Shown one piece after another: positions 37,024-44,339 of a stretch of 64,000 nucleotides of DNA. The position numbers and the translations under genes were made by a program. Origin of the DNA: an uncultured Victivallales bacterium (GTDB taxonomy: Bacteria > Verrucomicrobiota > Lentisphaeria > Victivallales > UBA1829). The DNA is taken from positions 71,100-135,099 of the forward strand of contig CALXRI010000003.1 of assembly GCA_944390795.1 (NCBI GenBank), read 5' to 3'. Numbering within the stretch: position 1 is the stretch's first letter; every line of letters starts with the position of its first letter. The notes under the pieces are model-generated. The model worked only from the letters and a program-made list of their open reading frames with translations. It was not told the origin of the DNA and did not search any database.

Positions 37024-37938
37024 ATGTCCATACCGGGGTATGCCGACATTCAGATCAACGGGTATCGGAACGTGGATTTTTCGGATCCCGCATTGACGGA
37101 GACGGATTTCCTGCGCACGGCGGAACGGATTTTCGAGAGCGGAACGTATCTTTTTCTGCCGACAGTCATCACAAGCAGCGAAGAGGTTTATCTGCGCAAC
37201 ATCCGCCTGATGCATGACGCGGTGGAAAAGGAGGGGCTGCAGAAACAGATTCCGGGCATTCACGCGGAAGGCCCTTTTCTTTCCGATCAGCCGGGCGCGG
37301 TCGGCTGTCACAATCCGGCGTGGGTACGGAAACCATCCTGCGCGTTTCTGGACAAGATCATGGACCGGACCGGCGGATTCATCAAGCTGATGACCGTCGC
37401 GGCGGAAAATGACGGCGCGGAAGAGCTGATCCGCCATGCCGTCTCCCTGGGGATCGCGGTCGGCTGCGGACACCAGCTCGCGAACTATGAACAGCTTCAG
37501 AAAGCCCAGAAAGCGGGAGCGCGCACTCTTACGCATCTCGGAAACGGCATTCCGAACATGATTCACCGCCATAAGAATCCGATCTGGTCCGGGCTTGCCT
37601 GCGACGATCTGACCGCCACGATCATTACCGACGGGCATCATCTGCCTCCGGAACTTATCAAATGCGTCATCCGGATGAAGGGGCCGGACAAGGTCATCGT
37701 CATCAGCGACGCATCGCCGGTCGCGGGACTGCCGCCGGGACGCTACCATATGCTTGGAAACGATGCCGTTCTGGAGGAGAACGGACTCTTTCACAATCCG
37801 GAGAAAGGCTGTCTCGTCGGCTCCTCCGCAAGCATGAGCGACTGCATGAAGTATCTGGAATCGCTGGAGCTTCTGGATCGCGAGGGACTGGAGAAAGTCG
37901 GTTATTACAATGCCGTGAAACTTCTCGGAATGCTCTGA
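37024..37938 (+). CDS. nagA: N-acetylglucosamine-6-phosphate deacetylase-like amidohydrolase
   Basis: The 304-aa product shows NagA landmarks: PGYADIQINGYRNVDFSD at the very start (compare E. coli PGFIDVQLNG), HAEGPFL with the metal Glu near 80, CGHQLANY and LTHLGNGIPN with the metal His residues, and VISDASPVAG with the catalytic Asp near 230. NagA deacetylates GlcNAc-6-P. It lacks the about 50 N-terminal residues that form part of the beta-sandwich in classical NagA, hence the short length. A strong AAGGAGG lies before ATG 37024. Directly follows the GH20 gene, so the two fit consecutive steps. Confidence 0.85.
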   Translation: MSIPGYADIQINGYRNVDFSDPALTETDFLRTAERIFESGTYLFLPTVITSSEEVYLRNIRLMHDAVEKEGLQKQIPGIHAEGPFLSDQPGAVGCHNPAWVRKPSCAFLDKIMDRTGGFIKLMTVAAENDGAEELIRHAVSLGIAVGCGHQLANYEQLQKAQKAGARTLTHLGNGIPNMIHRHKNPIWSGLACDDLTATIITDGHHLPPELIKCVIRMKGPDKVIVISDASPVAGLPPGRYHMLGNDAVLEENGLFHNPEKGCLVGSSASMSDCMKYLESLELLDREGLEKVGYYNAVKLLGML

Positions 37939-38049
37939 AGCGGAGTTTCCGCCTCGCGGACAAGGACGAAATACGATAGTTTTCAACGGTCCGGAAGCGT
38001 CTCCCGCTTTGCGGCCGGATGACTGAGAAAGAATAAGGAGTGATTGATT

Positions 38050-38700
38050 ATGAGTTACCTTGTGAAGAAAACGCCTGTCCCCGCCGCTCTTGACGCCGCC
38101 TGGGATTCCCCCGTGTGGAACGGAGCCGTGGAACTGAAACTGGATTACGTCTTCAGCAGAAGCGGCGATCACCATCCCGACACCCGGGTCAAAATGCTGT
38201 ATGACGATCGGAACATCTACGGGCTGTTTCAGGTTCATGACCGGTATGTCAAGGCCCTTGCGGTGAAAAATCAGGACCAGGTCTGCCTGGACAGCTGCGT
38301 GGAATTTTTTGTCAAACCCGCCGGGGCGGAACGCTACTTCAACTTTGAAATGAACTGCGGCGGAACGATCCTGCTGTATCATGTCAGAAACTGCCGCGCG
38401 GGCGACTACACCCCGGTTCCGGAAGCTGACCTGGCGACGATTGAGCGCTTTCATACGCTTCCGGAAAGAGTCCCCGAGGAGATCACCGATCCGGTCACCT
38501 GGCGTCTCGGCTTCCGGATTCCCATCGCCTTCTTTGTGAAATACTCGAAGATCAATCCGAACCTCTCCGGTCAGAAATGGATGGCCAATTTCACGAAATG
38601 CGCCGACCATACTTCGCATCCGCACTGGATCTCCTGGCAGGCGCTGCCCAAATGCGATTTTCATCAGCCCGATCACTTCGGGGAGCTGCTTTTCGAGTAA
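38050..38700 (+). CDS. CBM9-like domain protein without signal peptide
   Basis: The 216-aa product is essentially one CBM9-like beta-sandwich: LDAAWDSPVWNGAVELKLDY, RVKMLYDDRNIYGLFQVHD, DSCVEFFVKPAG and ISWQALPKCDFHQPDHFGEL. This family binds sugars or chain ends and usually sits on exported enzymes. Here it has no signal peptide and stands alone in a cytoplasmic amino-sugar operon, so it may be a cytoplasmic sugar-binding or carrier protein (inference). AAGGAG lies before ATG 38050. A TTG at 38044 would add two residues. Confidence 0.75.
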   Translation: MSYLVKKTPVPAALDAAWDSPVWNGAVELKLDYVFSRSGDHHPDTRVKMLYDDRNIYGLFQVHDRYVKALAVKNQDQVCLDSCVEFFVKPAGAERYFNFEMNCGGTILLYHVRNCRAGDYTPVPEADLATIERFHTLPERVPEEITDPVTWRLGFRIPIAFFVKYSKINPNLSGQKWMANFTKCADHTSHPHWISWQALPKCDFHQPDHFGELLFE

Positions 38701-38737
38701 ACGCCGAGGAAAAAAAGAATTTTCCGCTCCGGAGGGG

Positions 38738-38786
38738 TTGAAATTGTCTTTTTGTGTGTTATCATTGATAGGTGTCACGTGTTACC
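38738..38786 (+). promoter_or_regulatory. Promoter and LacI-type operator for the sugar isomerase-lacI pair
   Basis: TTGAAA (38738-38743) and TATCAT (38760-38765) are spaced 16 bases apart. The palindrome GGTGTCACGTGTTACC (38771-38786), CG-centred and symmetric at 12 of 16 positions, lies at the expected start site, where a repressor would block the polymerase. It gives the last two genes of the cluster their own control. Confidence 0.65.
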
Positions 38787-38818
38787 AAACTTGATCTTCA
38801 CACACAAAAAAAGGTGCC

Positions 38819-39679
38819 ATGCACATGGAAAATGGAAAAATTCTGCCGCTGGGAACCTTGTTCCGTCTGACGCAGTTCAAACCGGAACGCCTTGCCTTTC
38901 TGCATGAAGTCGGCATGAATGCCTGCCAGTTCTGCGGAATCGACGACAATTATCTTTCCGGTCCGGAAGGGGCGGAGAACACAAAGCGTCTTGCCGATGC
39001 TCTGGAGAAGTATGAAATCACGCCCGTTTCGCTTTTCTTCTCGTTTCCCTCCCAGAACTGGAGTCCGGACCGTTCCGTCAATACCGTCGGCATGACCAGG
39101 CTCTCCGTCCGGGCGAACCGTTTTGCATCCGCCGCGCGGCAGATGAACTGGGGGCTGAAGCATTTCGGCATCCGGCATCTGCTCTGCCATGTCGGTTTTC
39201 TGCCGGAGGACGAAACGGAATTTGCGCATTTCATCGACGACCTGCGCGAATTCTGCCGTCTGGCCCGGGACAACGGACAGTATTTCCTGTTTGAAACGGG
39301 TCCGGAAACCGACCTTGAACTTAAAAAATGCATTGACATGCTCGGGCTGGACAATGTCGGAATCAATCTGGATCCGGCGAACCTTCTGATTTACGACAAG
39401 ACGGAGCCTCTGGATTTTGTGGAGTCTCTCGGCGAATACGTGCTCGGCGTTCACTGCAAGGACGCGTGCCGCCCGGTCGGCGGCGCTCTCATGGGGAAGG
39501 AAACTCCTCTTGGAAAGGGCGACACGAAATTCGGCGAAGTCATGGAGAAACTGTATCGGAAAGGGTTCCGCGGTCCGCTCATCATTGAGCGGGAGATTCC
39601 GCCGGGACCGGAACAGGACGCGGACATCCGGGCTGCGATGACGTATCTGCGCGAACTCAGAAGTTCGCTGATGCGATGA
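38819..39679 (+). CDS. Sugar-phosphate isomerase/epimerase-like TIM barrel
   Basis: The 286-aa product matches the xylose-isomerase-like TIM barrel/AP-endonuclease 2 family. Characteristic strands: HVGFLPEDETEFAHFIDDL, YFLFETGPETD with a metal Glu, VGINLDPANLLIYDK, VLGVHCKDACRP and PLIIEREIPPG with a final metal Glu. Such enzymes epimerise or isomerise sugars, often in catabolic operons. The exact substrate is unknown; amino-sugar neighbours suggest a related sugar. It has its own promoter and operator. The stop overlaps an ATG of the lacI gene. Confidence 0.85.
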   Translation: MHMENGKILPLGTLFRLTQFKPERLAFLHEVGMNACQFCGIDDNYLSGPEGAENTKRLADALEKYEITPVSLFFSFPSQNWSPDRSVNTVGMTRLSVRANRFASAARQMNWGLKHFGIRHLLCHVGFLPEDETEFAHFIDDLREFCRLARDNGQYFLFETGPETDLELKKCIDMLGLDNVGINLDPANLLIYDKTEPLDFVESLGEYVLGVHCKDACRPVGGALMGKETPLGKGDTKFGEVMEKLYRKGFRGPLIIEREIPPGPEQDADIRAAMTYLRELRSSLMR

Positions 39680-39714
39680 GGAGCCGGGCGGCGCGGGAAC
39701 AGAAAAGGGAAAAA

Positions 39715-40755
39715 ATGGCCATTACATCCAAGGATATTGCAAAGCTTGCGGGCGTCTCCCGCTCCGCCGTTTCCGCGGTTCTGAACGGGCATTACAACAA
39801 GGTCTCTCTGGAAAAGCGCGAAAAGATTCTTGCCATCGCGCAGGACCTGCGTTACCGTCCGAATCCCGCCGCGCTGATTCTGGCGAAGAAGAAGACAAAA
39901 CGCATCGGAATCATCACCAGCCCTTTCATGTCGGCGATTTACAGCGATCTGACAAGCAAGATCGCCTTTCTGCTCCGCGAACGAGGATACGGTTCCTCCC
40001 TTGTGACGCCGCTTTCCGCCAGACAGGAGCTGGAGGCCGTGATGGATTTCGAATCCTTCGGCGCGGACGGCATCATCATCGCCTATGCGCTGAACGATGT
40101 GAGGAAGCTCAATACAAAGATTCCCGTTGTCAGCATGTCGCCCTATCCGGGGCAGTATGAGCTGCGCGTCGATCTCAAATACGCCTTTGAGCTTGCGGTG
40201 ACGCACTTCCGCAGACACGGCCATCGGAAAATCGGTTTTGTCTGTCCGGATCTTTCCGTTGTGCCGCTCCAGTGGGAGGGGTATCTCGCCGCGATCGGCG
40301 CTTCCGGCGCCTATAAGCTCGAAGTCACCGGGAATCCGAAGTTTTCCCGGGAACTTGACACGATGATCCAGAAGGAGGGGGTTCGGGCCTGGTGCGTCAC
40401 CAACGATCTGCTTGCCGCGCGCCTGATGCGCCATCTGTTTTCCTCCGGATACCGCGTCCCGGAAGATGCCGCGCTGATCGGGTTTGACGGTTCCGCCTTT
40501 GTGGAAGTGACCCCGAGTCCCCTGACGACCGTTGTGTTTCCCGCCGCGCGGATTGCGGAACGGAGCATCGGGCTTCTGTTCGAGAAAATCGAATCCGGGG
40601 AAACGGCATTCCGCCCGGAACCCGAACTTGTCAAGCCGGAACTTTTCATCGGGGAGAGCTGCGGCTGCCGTTCCGGAAAGCCCTACCGGATCAGCTGGGA
40701 CCGTCAGATCCTCACACTGGATGACGGAATCGGAGAGAAAAAGGAGCTGCACTGA
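39715..40755 (+). CDS. LacI-family transcriptional regulator
   Basis: The 346-aa product has an N-terminal LacI helix-turn-helix (ITSKDIAKLAGVSRSAVSAV) and hinge, followed by the periplasmic-binding-protein-like sugar-sensing domain (KTKRIGIITSPFMSAIYSD, GADGIIIAYALN, HRKIGFVCPD, IGFDGSAFVEVTPSPLTTV). ATG 39715 is preferred because it directly precedes the HTH and follows AAGGGA; an ATG at 39676 overlaps the previous stop. It ends the amino-sugar cluster and is the natural candidate to bind the operators at 35106 and 38771. Confidence 0.93.
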   Translation: MAITSKDIAKLAGVSRSAVSAVLNGHYNKVSLEKREKILAIAQDLRYRPNPAALILAKKKTKRIGIITSPFMSAIYSDLTSKIAFLLRERGYGSSLVTPLSARQELEAVMDFESFGADGIIIAYALNDVRKLNTKIPVVSMSPYPGQYELRVDLKYAFELAVTHFRRHGHRKIGFVCPDLSVVPLQWEGYLAAIGASGAYKLEVTGNPKFSRELDTMIQKEGVRAWCVTNDLLAARLMRHLFSSGYRVPEDAALIGFDGSAFVEVTPSPLTTVVFPAARIAERSIGLLFEKIESGETAFRPEPELVKPELFIGESCGCRSGKPYRISWDRQILTLDDGIGEKKELH

Positions 40756-40866: not shown

Positions 40867-41232
40867 TCAGTCCGCGGGGAATGCCATCGTGCAGTAGTAG
40901 GCCAGATTCGGCTGGCGGACATCCATTCTGCCATACTGAACGGAGACGGGGACGCTGCTCCGGACGCGCAGCGCATACTGAGTCGCCCGTGGCACGTCGT
41001 ATTGCAGGTCGGACTCCTGATCCAGGCGGATGGCGCGGATGCGGCGCGCTCCGACGCGGTGGCGCAGCCCTAGCACGGGCTCCCGGTCCTCGAAATACAG
41101 ATCGATCAGGATTTCGGCGTCCGTGCCGGTCGTGTTGAGGATCATCAGCGATTCATGGTTCACCATGTCGCCGGAGCCTCCCGCGGGAGGCAGCCAGCAG
41201 TCCGGCACGATCCATTCCCTGCGCCCGCTCAT
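40867..41232 (-). CDS. Sensory rhodopsin transducer (ASRT) family protein
   Basis: The 121-aa product matches the Anabaena sensory rhodopsin transducer family (PF07100): an early WIVPDCWLPPAGG loop, SLMILNTTGTDAEILIDLYF then EDREPV, a central HRVGARRIRAIRLD, and the C-terminal SVPVSVQYGRMDVRQ followed by TMAFPAD. ASRT is a small beta-sandwich tetramer that partners a rhodopsin in cyanobacteria. No rhodopsin is present here, and the gene is the last of a LacI-controlled operon, with its ATG overlapping the amidohydrolase stop. A role as a small sugar-binding or sensing protein is plausible (inference). Confidence 0.85.
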   Translation of the reverse strand: MSGRREWIVPDCWLPPAGGSGDMVNHESLMILNTTGTDAEILIDLYFEDREPVLGLRHRVGARRIRAIRLDQESDLQYDVPRATQYALRVRSSVPVSVQYGRMDVRQPNLAYYCTMAFPAD

Positions 41233-42026
41233 AATCCGAGCACCTTCTGGGCGTTTCTGTAAAGGATCTTCGCCTTGTCCTCTTCCGGGATGTCCATTGC
41301 CCGGATCACCTCGCTGGCAAAGCGCATCTGCATCGGGCCCTGCAGGGGGGCGTCCGTTCCGTAGACGATGTGATCCGCGCCGGCGATCGCGTACATCTTC
41401 TCCATCACGCCGGGATAGACGTACATCAGATAATGCGCCGTGTCGACGTAGACGTTCGGCAGATTCATCTGCATGACCGCCTCCAGCGAATCCATGTTCG
41501 GGAAATAGGGATAGTTGCCGTTCTGGTAGATTCCGGCCATGTGCGCGAGGACGAATTTCGTTCCGGGATGGTTTTTCGCGATTTCCGCGACCGTCACGGC
41601 GGGGGAGAATCCGGTTCCCGGCATGCAGGAGACGTGGAAGATCATCATCGGCGTCATGTCCGCGACCGCCTCGACCCAGCGGCGGTTCGACGGCGTCGAA
41701 AGGACGTAGCCGTGATAGTCCGGATGGATTTTCACGCCCCGGAATTTCGGGTTGCGCTTCAGAAGCTCCAGATCGCCGAGGGACTCCGAGAAAGTCGGGC
41801 TGACGACCACGTAGCCGAGCAGTTTCGTGGTTTCCTGCAGCGCGGCGTCCACTTCCGCATTGCCTTCGCGGATGTCGTACATCAGCGAGCGGGAAGCGGA
41901 AACGCAGAGGGTGTCCACGCCGGACTGTTCGCAGTATTCCTCCAGTCGGGCGGCGTCGGCGCGCCAGAAGGGGGCGATGTTGATGTTTCCGAGATGTCCG
42001 TGAATGTCGATAATCATTTTCTTCAC
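41229..42026 (-). CDS. Amidohydrolase-family (amidohydro_2) metal-dependent hydrolase
   Basis: The 265-aa product is a TIM-barrel amidohydrolase: IDIHGHLG at the start (two metal His), GVKIHPDYHGY near 105 and FHVSCMPG with a metal His, VLAHMAG, and YGTDAPLQGP with the catalytic Asp near 235, ending in the helix NAQKVLGL. Relatives act on carboxylated rings and lactones; the substrate here is unknown. It starts at GTG 42026, overlapping the M24 stop as GTGA; ATG 42017 is an alternative. Coupled to the ASRT gene downstream. Confidence 0.85.
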   Translation of the reverse strand: MKKMIIDIHGHLGNINIAPFWRADAARLEEYCEQSGVDTLCVSASRSLMYDIREGNAEVDAALQETTKLLGYVVVSPTFSESLGDLELLKRNPKFRGVKIHPDYHGYVLSTPSNRRWVEAVADMTPMMIFHVSCMPGTGFSPAVTVAEIAKNHPGTKFVLAHMAGIYQNGNYPYFPNMDSLEAVMQMNLPNVYVDTAHYLMYVYPGVMEKMYAIAGADHIVYGTDAPLQGPMQMRFASEVIRAMDIPEEDKAKILYRNAQKVLGL

Positions 42027-43186
42027 ACTTTCAGAATGTTGAGTTCACGCCCGAGACTGGAGAGCTGTTCCGCCGGAGCGTCTTTCCGCACGATGAGACC
42101 GTCCTCCCAGCGGAATCCCATTCCGCCGCGGTGCAGGAACATGTCCGCCATGAAAGTCATGTTTTCCTCCAGCGGATAGGTGGAGGAGGTTTCGAGGAAC
42201 GGATATTCGCACTCCATCTGTCCGCACCCGTGCGCGGGACCGTAGAGGATCGCGTCGCCGTAGCCCTGTTCGCGGATGTAGCCGTGCACCTTCTTCGCGA
42301 CATCGGAAGCGAGTCTTCCCGCGCGCATTTCATCGAAGGTCATGTTCAGCGCGTCGAGTCCGACCTGGAGAAAACGGCGCGTCTCCTCCGGACAGCGCCC
42401 GAGGACGACGGGACGCCCGAGACTCGTGCTGTATCCCTCGACCTTCGCGCCGATGCTGAAGTGGATGATTTCGCCGCACCCGACCTTGCGCAGCGTCGGA
42501 CGGCTGATCGCCTGGTCCGAGTTCGGCCCGGAGCAGCACCAGACCGGATACCCGGTTGCCTCCGCGCCGTTTGCCAGCATGGCCGCTGTCGCGATTCCGC
42601 AGAGCTCCGCTTCCGTCATGCCGGGCCTGATGGCTTCGAGAACCGCCTTGAATCCGAGTTCGGACACCTTTGCGGATCTGCGCAGACATTCCAGCTCAAG
42701 CGGGCTCTTCTTCATGAAAACGGGGCGCAGCACGGCGTCGGCGTTGGCGACATGCTCCATGCCGCCGAGCGCGGCGCTGATGTTTGTCATGATCGCATAG
42801 GGGAACATGTGCCAGCCTGTGATTCCCAGCTTCCGCACCTTGAATTCCCCGAGGATCGCTTTCCAGTCGGGGTGTTTCGAACCGGGATAGTCCGGCTGGG
42901 AGGATTCGCGGAAGTCCATGGTCTGGATCACGCGCGGGATCCGGGTCCGCGCCGTTGCGTAGGTCAGGCTTTCCGGACCGATGATCAGGGCGGGGCTTCC
43001 TTCCCGCGGGATCAGCACGCCCGCCGTTTCAAAGCTCGGCCAGTAGTCCGAAAAATAGCGGACGCCAGCGGGTTCGGACTCCGTGGAGAAGACCAGCGCC
43101 GCATCGAGATCCGTTTTTGCAATTTCCGCCTGCGCCCGGACGATCCGGTCCGCAAACTCCTGTTTTGTAAGAATTCTTTCTTCCAT
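42023..43186 (-). CDS. M24-family (creatinase/Xaa-Pro-aminopeptidase-like) protein
   Basis: The 387-aa product has the creatinase-type N-terminal domain (about 20-140, VRYFSDYWPSFETAGVLIP) and a pita-bread C-terminal domain. Aligned with M24 metallopeptidases, the two metal Asp residues are Ser (HFSIGAKVEGYSTSLGRPV near 240-257), whereas the His in PAHGCGQ and two later Glu (ECEYP, RWEDG) are kept. Creatinase itself works without metal, so this is more likely a creatinase-like hydrolase than a peptidase (inference). It follows the lacI gene by 32 bases and its stop overlaps the amidohydrolase start. Confidence 0.82.
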   Translation of the reverse strand: MEERILTKQEFADRIVRAQAEIAKTDLDAALVFSTESEPAGVRYFSDYWPSFETAGVLIPREGSPALIIGPESLTYATARTRIPRVIQTMDFRESSQPDYPGSKHPDWKAILGEFKVRKLGITGWHMFPYAIMTNISAALGGMEHVANADAVLRPVFMKKSPLELECLRRSAKVSELGFKAVLEAIRPGMTEAELCGIATAAMLANGAEATGYPVWCCSGPNSDQAISRPTLRKVGCGEIIHFSIGAKVEGYSTSLGRPVVLGRCPEETRRFLQVGLDALNMTFDEMRAGRLASDVAKKVHGYIREQGYGDAILYGPAHGCGQMECEYPFLETSSTYPLEENMTFMADMFLHRGGMGFRWEDGLIVRKDAPAEQLSSLGRELNILKV

Positions 43187-43218
43187 ACTCCTGAGCTCCT
43201 CGTTTCGGGTTTGAGTTT

Positions 43219-44268
43219 TCACGTCTTTATCCGCCGCCGGACCGCGCGTCCGGCGGATTGCATTTCCAGAGTTGAGGCGCGTGCGCAGAGTTCCTGCTCC
43301 AGCACAATCCTCCTTGACGGAAGAGCCTTCTTTTCCATCAGCGCGCAGAGCATCCGCACCGCCCGGCGCGCGATCTCCTGATACGGCTGGCGGATCGAAG
43401 TCAGGGCCAGCGCCGAAAGCGCGGATATCTCCATGTTGTCGATTCCGGCAAGGGCAAAATCGCGTCCCGCGTGCAATCCGTGTTTCGCGGCTTCGTTCTG
43501 AAAGCCCAGCGCGCAGAGATCGTTCACGCAGAAAACGCCGTCCGTTTTGAATCCGTCCGCGGCAAGACGGCGGAAGGCCTCCGCGCCCGCTTCGAGCGTC
43601 ATCCCGGCCGGAATGCAGTTTTCCGCGCTCAATTCGATACCGGCGCGGTGCAGGGTGTCGCGGAAGGCTTCGCGCGTTTTGCGGAACGCGCTGAAAAAGA
43701 GCATGTCCGCGGCCGCGTCGACATAGGCCGGTTTCCTTGCCCCGACGGCCCGGAAATGATCCGCCATCAGCGCGCCGCACTGTGCCAGATCATTGATGAC
43801 GCAGGGACCGCCGTAGGTGTCCGGAACGCTGTCCAGCGCGACATAGGGAATTCCGGCACGGTCAAGGAGTTCGAAGGGTTCCGGGCTCTTTTCGCAGGAA
43901 CAGAGAAGCACGCCGCGGGCCCGCATCCGGATCAGACGCTCGACGGAGGCGCGTTCATGTTCCTCGTTCCAGTCGCTTCCGGCGGTAAAGAGCGTCAGGC
44001 CCATTTCGGAGAAGGCTCTCTGGGCGTGTTTGATCATCAGCGAATGAAACGGATTTGCCAGATCCGTCACCAGAAAGCCGACGATGTCCGTTTGTCCGGA
44101 ACGCAGCTGCCGCGCCGCCTGATTCGGGACGTAGTTGAGCTCCCGGGCGATTGACAGAATCCGTTTCCGTGTCGCTTCGCTGATCTTCGGGCTTCCCCGG
44201 AACGCCAGCGAGACGGCCATATTGGAAACTCCGGCTTTTTCCGCAATGTCATTGATCGTGGTCCGCAT
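43219..44268 (-). CDS. LacI-family transcriptional regulator, probably autoregulated
   Basis: The 349-aa product starts with the LacI HTH (TTINDIAEKAGVSNMAVSLA) and hinge (YVPNQAARQLRSGQTD) and has the sugar-sensing domain (IVGFLVTDLANPFHSLM, ARGVLLCSCEKSPEPFE, FALAGIDNMEISALS). ATG 44268 is used; a longer start (44307) would place the operator inside the gene. A CG-centred palindrome directly upstream suggests it represses its own operon, which includes the M24 protein, amidohydrolase and ASRT protein. Confidence 0.93.
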   Translation of the reverse strand: MRTTINDIAEKAGVSNMAVSLAFRGSPKISEATRKRILSIARELNYVPNQAARQLRSGQTDIVGFLVTDLANPFHSLMIKHAQRAFSEMGLTLFTAGSDWNEEHERASVERLIRMRARGVLLCSCEKSPEPFELLDRAGIPYVALDSVPDTYGGPCVINDLAQCGALMADHFRAVGARKPAYVDAAADMLFFSAFRKTREAFRDTLHRAGIELSAENCIPAGMTLEAGAEAFRRLAADGFKTDGVFCVNDLCALGFQNEAAKHGLHAGRDFALAGIDNMEISALSALALTSIRQPYQEIARRAVRMLCALMEKKALPSRRIVLEQELCARASTLEMQSAGRAVRRRIKT

Positions 44269-44288: not shown

Positions 44289-44339
44289 GTTTGACGTTAA
44301 ACTTCATTTTAACAATAGACAGCAAAACAGAAAAAACAA
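44289..44339 (-). promoter_or_regulatory. Promoter and LacI-type operator for the ASRT operon
   Basis: On the minus strand TTGTTT (44334-44339) and TATTGT (44312-44317) are 16 bases apart. GTTTGACGTTAAAC (44289-44302), symmetric at 12 of 14 positions around CG, lies just after the expected start point and before the lacI ATG. Confidence 0.65.

Follow-up and report, generated by a model that had tools for sequence, protein, structure and literature searches.

ASRT-family proteins have so far been studied mainly as the light-signal transducer of Anabaena. What, then, does such a protein do in an operon that joins it to an M24 protein and an amidohydrolase? The question is raised by a 64,000-nucleotide stretch of DNA (hereafter the window) from an uncultured gut bacterium of the Victivallales, whose genome of 3.44 Mb is 95% complete and holds one ASRT gene. 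We find that the genomic neighbourhood of ASRT is non-random, with M24 as the recurrent partner, and that the M24 proteins concerned share an altered active site, here called HDE-type after the last three of their five ligand positions. Judged from sequence, there is about an even chance that the ASRT protein is a ligand-binding accessory of an HDE-type M24 catabolic enzyme in a LacI-repressed operon. The genes, which run on the minus strand in the order LacI regulator, M24, Amidohydro_2 and ASRT, and a palindrome beside them are as follows.

43219..44268, minus strand: LacI-family transcription regulator, the first gene of the operon (PF00356 and PF13377 above cut-off)
42023..43186, minus strand: HDE-type M24 protein with a Creatinase_N domain (PF00557, 114.7 bits, and PF01321)
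41229..42026 (GTG start) or 41229..42017 (ATG start), minus strand: Amidohydro_2 metal-dependent hydrolase (PF04909, 76.2 bits, cut-off 26.4)
40867..41232, minus strand: ASRT-family protein of 121 aa (PF07100, 114.3 bits, cut-off 25)
44289..44302, no strand assigned: LacI-type operator-like palindrome GTTTGACGTTAAAC (reverse strand GTTTAACGTCAAAC) with a central CG

An earlier, sequence-only reading of this DNA had described four packed genes with two overlapping pairs and one operator, and this arrangement is present. The amidohydrolase stop and the ASRT start overlap by 4 nt (ATGA), as do the M24 stop and the amidohydrolase start (GTGA). The latter overlap requires the GTG start; with the ATG at 42017 a gap of 5 nt takes its place. 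The lacI and M24 genes are 32 nt apart, and the genes flanking the operon are convergent or unrelated.

M24 genes as recurrent neighbours of ASRT

ASRT loci were collected in two ways. Those of the source organism's own phylum were drawn with a profile (hidden Markov model, HMM) from 388 genomes, blind to ASRT type. A scan of GTDB genomes, with patterns derived from the window's ASRT clade, yielded 80 ASRT loci, and all loci from outside the phylum come from this pattern scan. Removal of duplicates left a non-redundant set of 84 ASRT loci; many of the scanned records are metagenome bins with a possibly erroneous taxonomy, and the loci are related to one another. Close relatives in the GTDB scan are genomes of uncultured Victivallales/Lentisphaeria.

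An M24 gene lay within 4.5 kb of ASRT in 57 of the 84 loci, always on the same strand, upstream in 45 and downstream in 12; in 29 of the 57 it overlapped ASRT or lay no more than 50 nt away. The source genome has five M24 genes in 3.44 Mb, which puts chance linkage at about 1.5% per locus, so the random neighbourhood against which the sequence-only reading had staked its proposal is not what the data show. M24 was the commonest ASRT neighbour (56 of the 80 called loci), and any other catabolic family appeared in at most 17. Other neighbours were FucI/AraA-like proteins (17 loci), PIG-L (16), LacI regulators (13) and phosphotriesterase-like (PTE) proteins (12). Amidohydrolases, which that reading had expected to recur together with M24, were neighbours in 12 loci and mainly with one M24 subclass; of the two proposed partners, M24 alone recurs broadly.

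In the own-phylum profile sample, which carries no pattern bias, 19 of 33 fetched ASRT loci were still M24-linked, in addition to the window and one further locus (L195). Linked loci came from about ten phyla, namely Lentisphaerota, Planctomycetota, Kiritimatiellota, Omnitrophota, Bacillota, Actinomycetota, Spirochaetota, Chloroflexota, Bacteroidota and Acidobacteriota. Among the ASRT-M24 pairs are those of the culturable Cohnella and Paenibacillus (L074, L084). At the level of whole genomes, a relative of the window M24 occurred in 19 of 20 ASRT-positive genomes versus 26 of 269 others in a 289-genome sample (Fisher p=1.7e-16, relatedness ignored). Across the phylum sample, 27 of the 28 genomes with an ASRT of the window's clade hold such a relative somewhere, the exception being 72% complete; genomes with an ASRT from outside the clade (G229, G342) are without one.

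That ASRT proteins may bind metabolites in catabolic operons is an idea already published in 2009, when De Souza, Iyer and Aravind (PMC2739507) argued that solo ASRTs sense sugars or metabolites inside the cell and belong to sugar operons of various kinds; they listed contexts with isomerase/aldolase/kinase, an ABC importer, amylase and pyruvate oxidase. The M24 partnership is new here. The main text of that study, its additional file aside, contains no word beginning with peptidase, creatinase, prolidase, amidohydrolase or M24, and our literature search found no paper linking ASRT to M24.

Other contexts were also seen. A second recurrent one comprises ASRTs of the window's clade at four loci without M24 (L077, L083, L140, L142), where the partners are LacI, a sugar ABC importer and a polysaccharide deacetylase, with a GH20b-domain protein in three of the four. 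On a Sphingobium plasmid (L176, 6986-12754), only a MarR regulator separates ASRT from an ectABC/ectoine hydroxylase cluster, a proximity that is possibly due to chance. In Sinorhizobium meliloti (L175, 6965-9110), two ASRT paralogues are split by one FAD-binding gene, and the pair adjoins pyruvate oxidase and maltose alpha-D-glucosyltransferase. A conjugative plasmid of Klebsiella pneumoniae (L179, 6971-7363) carries an IS-flanked ASRT next to a sugar transporter, with a mandelate racemase-like gene in the vicinity.

An M24 clade with an altered active site

The AlphaFold model of the window M24 (pLDDT 92.6) has the pita-bread fold; its nearest solved folds are X-Pro aminopeptidase, prolidase and creatinase, and its best PDB matches 2ZSG, 4EGE and 1WY2. 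When aligned to Pyrococcus prolidase (metal ligands D,D,H,E,E), the window protein reads S,S,H,D,E and lacks the ligand set of an M24 metallopeptidase. The change is general among its relatives: in each of the 71 full-length linked M24s the five positions are x,x,H,D,E, with both Asp lost, the first Glu replaced by Asp, and the His and last Glu retained, a count that reaches 95 with further loci. Among linked M24s, the first lost Asp is replaced by Ser, Ala, Asn or Gln and the second by Ser, Thr, Ala, Val or Ile. These proteins form one clade (support 99/96, in a tree with few outgroups on long branches). His319, Glu325, Glu327, Asp348, Arg359 and Glu361 are invariant. This conservation favours a working enzyme over a dead scaffold, in which one metal could still be bound by the His, Asp and Glu together.

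None of the known M24 activities that we compared fits this active site. X-Pro dipeptidases and aminopeptidases (prolidase; 1PV9, 2ZSG) are nearest in both solved fold and sequence, but retain the two Asp ligands and the Glu that all linked M24s have lost or exchanged. Creatinase (1CHM) shares the two-domain architecture of Creatinase_N plus pita-bread, with a TM-score of 0.84-0.86 to the window M24, but only ~23% identity; its residues, read from a plasmid homologue of 1CHM, align as N,A,H,E and a last Glu or His, against S,S,H,D,E in the window. The His of the creatinase GAHNP motif, which we take to be the catalytic His232, aligns with Ile. The label "creatinase-like" given earlier is therefore apt for the fold and fails at the ligands and at this catalytic His. 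Ectoine hydrolase is no closer: the five residues of DoeA are E,P,W,M,T, quite unlike HDE, the ectoine operon is shown without ASRT, and the window M24 scores 45.7 against 613 for the equivalog TIGR02993 and 59.3 against 575 for NF038259. NCBIfam returned distant kin only, all below cut-off. Since its active-site residues match none of them, we rejected creatinase, prolidase and ectoine hydrolase as the activity of the window M24, which has the fold but fits neither a metallopeptidase, a creatinase nor an ectoine hydrolase. What the ectoine system does share with the window is the pairing of an M24 protein (EutD/DoeA) with a neighbouring hydrolase or deacetylase gene (EutE/DoeB).

The source genome has four M24 genes besides that of the window. 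Those on contigs C15 and C4 are canonical, and two are of the HDE type:

C7 of the source genome (G000), 81411-82508 (L207): HDE-type M24 of class N,S, no ASRT nearby
C2 of the same genome, 226445-227062 (L205): HDE-type M24 of class G,V, no ASRT nearby

Thus, the HDE clade extends beyond its ASRT-linked members.

At two other loci (L163 on G201:C12 and L155 on G162:C21) the M24 match contains one internal TGA or TAG, yet the called open reading frames are open; the stops are possibly an artefact of the match boundaries.

The ASRT clade and its predicted pocket

The window ASRT is a clear family member, with a PF07100 match spanning positions 2-119 of 119, and it is homologous to PDB entries 2II7 and 1NC7. 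With the solo ASRAH/ASRT proteins that these entries represent (PMC2739507) it shares the Pfam family, a stand-alone size of ~120 aa, a catabolic operon context, the conserved W and HE...N, and a predicted ligand pocket; it differs in belonging to a separate, supported clade in which the pocket Cys is replaced, and in its M24 neighbour. The conserved residues are W7, D11, H26, E27, N33, R102 and D104, and among 82 ASRTs of the clade H26, E27, N33, R102 and W7 are invariant, with D104 kept in 81.

A near-universal signature of solo ASRTs, SHExxCxxN, is distinct from the Pfam criterion; in a Thermotoga structure with 1,2-ethanediol, the His and Cys of this signature contact the ligand at what was read as a binding pocket (PMC2739507). 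The corresponding strand of the window ASRT is NHESLMILN, which departs from the signature in that H, E and N are kept and Cys has become Met. All 11 sequences from outside the clade have the Cys, as against none of the 82 inside, where Met, Ile, Val or Leu takes its place; this consistent absence suggests a different ligand in the window's clade. Thermotoga TM1070 retains the Cys. A tetramer with the ligand cleft between its subunits counts as a further mark of the family. A search for viral ASRT relatives found none, and NCBIfam gave no name to either the window ASRT or the amidohydrolase.

Third partners and repeated assembly

The subclass of the M24 protein, defined by the residues at the two lost Asp positions, predicts the third partner gene. 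Class S,S, to which the window M24 belongs, is accompanied by Amidohydro_2. Class A,T is found with PIG-L, a DUF2334-type polysaccharide deacetylase and a FucI/AraA-like protein that is distant to sulfoquinovose and arabinose isomerases; class N,S with a different polysaccharide deacetylase, a protein of 706 aa or creatininase. Phosphotriesterase-like proteins accompany classes Q,A/Q,V and A,I. ASRT is the element common to M24 subclasses whose third partners differ. The neighbours as a whole (deacetylases, lactonase-like PTE proteins and amidohydrolases, sugar isomerase-like proteins and glycosidases) suggest that the pathways act on derivatives of sugars that carry an acyl, lactone or C-N bond.

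This association does not look like a single inheritance. ASRT linkage switches at least nine times on well-supported branches of the M24 tree, six or more switches of class S,S are seen on the ASRT tree, and gene order varies, being ASRT-M24-amidohydrolase at L081 and L115 and M24-amidohydrolase-ASRT at other loci. Given this variation, the association has been rebuilt repeatedly rather than frozen once.

The amidohydrolase itself has the metal ligands of Amidohydro_2: H6 and H8 (HxH), H128, H159 and D222 are invariant in 21 orthologues. Its predicted fold (pLDDT 89.1) best matches the dihydroxybenzoate decarboxylase/LigY/LigJ group in the PDB, which places it in a broad group of decarboxylases, hydrolases and hydratases (TM 0.65-0.73) without a hint of substrate.

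Possible roles of ASRT in the operon

If ASRT is a ligand-binding accessory of the M24 enzyme, the operon might work as follows. As is usual for the LacI family, the regulator would keep the operon repressed as long as an inducer is absent. A small metabolite would be processed in sequence by the M24 protein and the amidohydrolase, which co-occur and have conserved active sites. With their conserved His/Glu/Asn/Arg/Asp pocket, ASRT subunits would most likely bind a small hydroxylated metabolite (the substrate, the product or an intermediate) and, in contact with M24 or its partner hydrolase, could assist or gate the M24 reaction. A parallel is offered by ectoine breakdown, in which the M24 ectoine hydrolase EutD works as a bimodule with the neighbouring deacetylase EutE, a partner that helps it and that it needs (PMC8739950). 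Ligand binding, physical contact and the catabolic direction are what we infer from these patterns.

Several observations weigh against so close a tie. About a third of ASRT loci have no nearby M24, some of them close to contig ends. No M24 gene adjoins the ASRTs from outside the clade (rhizobia, Deinococcus, Klebsiella and Natrialba plasmids), and the family as a whole thus does not share the partnership; annotated plasmid ASRT records show no annotated M24 within 7 kb, and their contexts resemble the published sugar-operon ones. Conversely, an S,S-class M24 stands directly beside an amidohydrolase without ASRT at twelve loci (L181-L191 and L194), the last of these in the same genus as the window and with no ASRT nearby. 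Because the pair occurs without it, ASRT is not essential to the M24-amidohydrolase pair and looks like an accessory of the M24 module.

A stronger version of the accessory reading, possible though doubtful in our view, would have ASRT and the HDE-type M24 act jointly as one catabolic enzyme, made of two proteins and spread over about ten phyla. It would have a single-metal site at most (His, Asp, Glu), a chemistry as yet undescribed, and an activity or specificity dependent on an ASRT tetramer, with the substrate set by the third hydrolase (amidohydrolase, PTE, PIG-L, polysaccharide deacetylase or creatininase).

Unlikely, though a serious contender, is that the clade ASRT works as a small enzyme in its own right, such as a sugar mutarotase, isomerase or lactonase, and performs a helper step in HDE-M24 pathways. 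The strict conservation of the pocket residues described above goes beyond what a passive binder needs, and ASRT is a stand-alone gene frequent in sugar operons (PMC2739507). However, the literature that we examined reports no activity for any ASRT-family member, and the ethanediol-bound structure was interpreted as showing a binding pocket.

We think it quite unlikely that ASRT and M24 are independent steps of one class of catabolic operon, neighbours simply because both are common there. Other sugar genes are indeed frequent around ASRT (the FucI/AraA-like, PIG-L, LacI and PTE counts above), and M24 and ASRT each occur alone. Yet M24 outnumbers the next catabolic neighbour by more than three to one, in every M24 subclass and with different third partners, and nearly all genomes with a clade ASRT (the 27 of 28) hold an HDE-type M24.

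It is improbable that the clade ASRT is a metabolite sensor acting in transcription, bending promoter DNA together with LacI, a role of the kind put forward for the Anabaena protein. Anabaena ASRT binds and loops DNA and alters reporter expression (PMC8660804), and the present operon has its own regulator and an operator-like palindrome. However, the reported affinity is weak and little dependent on sequence, and of the Anabaena contacts R109, Q110 and N113 (PMC8660804) the clade retains only Q110: position 113 is Met, Leu, Cys or Phe in all 82 clade ASRTs, and position 109 is Thr in 55. The window ASRT keeps R and Q and has Leu at 113. With two of three contact residues not kept across the clade, a DNA role is disfavoured and we rejected ASRT as a DNA-binding regulator.

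The chance that the protein is a remnant of light signalling with a rhodopsin elsewhere in the genome, for which the family name alone speaks, is practically negligible: a search with the rhodopsin profile PF01036 found no match in the source genome (95% complete), whereas across 376 genomes of the phylum it found rhodopsins in 12, none of them among the 30 ASRT-positive genomes. The earlier statement that no opsin partner is present was thus borne out, and we rejected a rhodopsin partner for the window ASRT; a partner of the Anabaena type is in any case no requirement of PF07100.

The survey gives ASRT a widespread and specific genomic partner with a sharp sequence signature, and thereby a concrete pair of proteins for study. 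It also marks a large M24 clade that is usually annotated as Xaa-Pro peptidase or creatinase and whose active site fits neither.

Regulation of the operon and neighbouring genes

The first gene encodes a LacI-family protein with a helix-turn-helix domain (PF00356) and a periplasmic-binding-like effector domain (PF13377), accompanied by the palindromic putative operator. Its nearest NCBIfam kin are GntR, RbsR and CytR, and it falls under every equivalog cut-off. The palindrome lies ~20 bp upstream of lacI, just beyond position 44268, where the sequence-only reading had ended the operon. A search of the window with GTTTRACGTYAAAC gave this one match only, with 0.33 expected when up to 2 mismatches are allowed. 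The palindrome is kept in two loci of the same genus (L064 and L065); in L065 it is the same element with its half-sites exchanged, inside an otherwise diverged promoter. We found no consensus sigma-70 promoter. Among the ASRT loci of the phylum, a close relative of this LacI protein was seen only at a same-genus locus, so LacI control is a local trait: the earlier description of a LacI-controlled operon agrees with the lacI gene and palindrome here and does not extend to the phylum's loci in general.

Two neighbouring regions on the plus strand deserve mention. At 37024-37938 there is a match to a NagA-like GlcNAc-6-phosphate deacetylase, without a Pfam match, that begins at profile position 55 and scores 197 bits against an NCBIfam cut-off of 226. 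At 38044-40755, a separate group of genes converges on the operon. It encodes a CBM9-like protein, a TIM barrel resembling xylose isomerase (AP_endonuc_2) and another LacI-family regulator, the second in the area; the genes of the TIM barrel and the regulator overlap by ATGA, and the group is probably another sugar operon.

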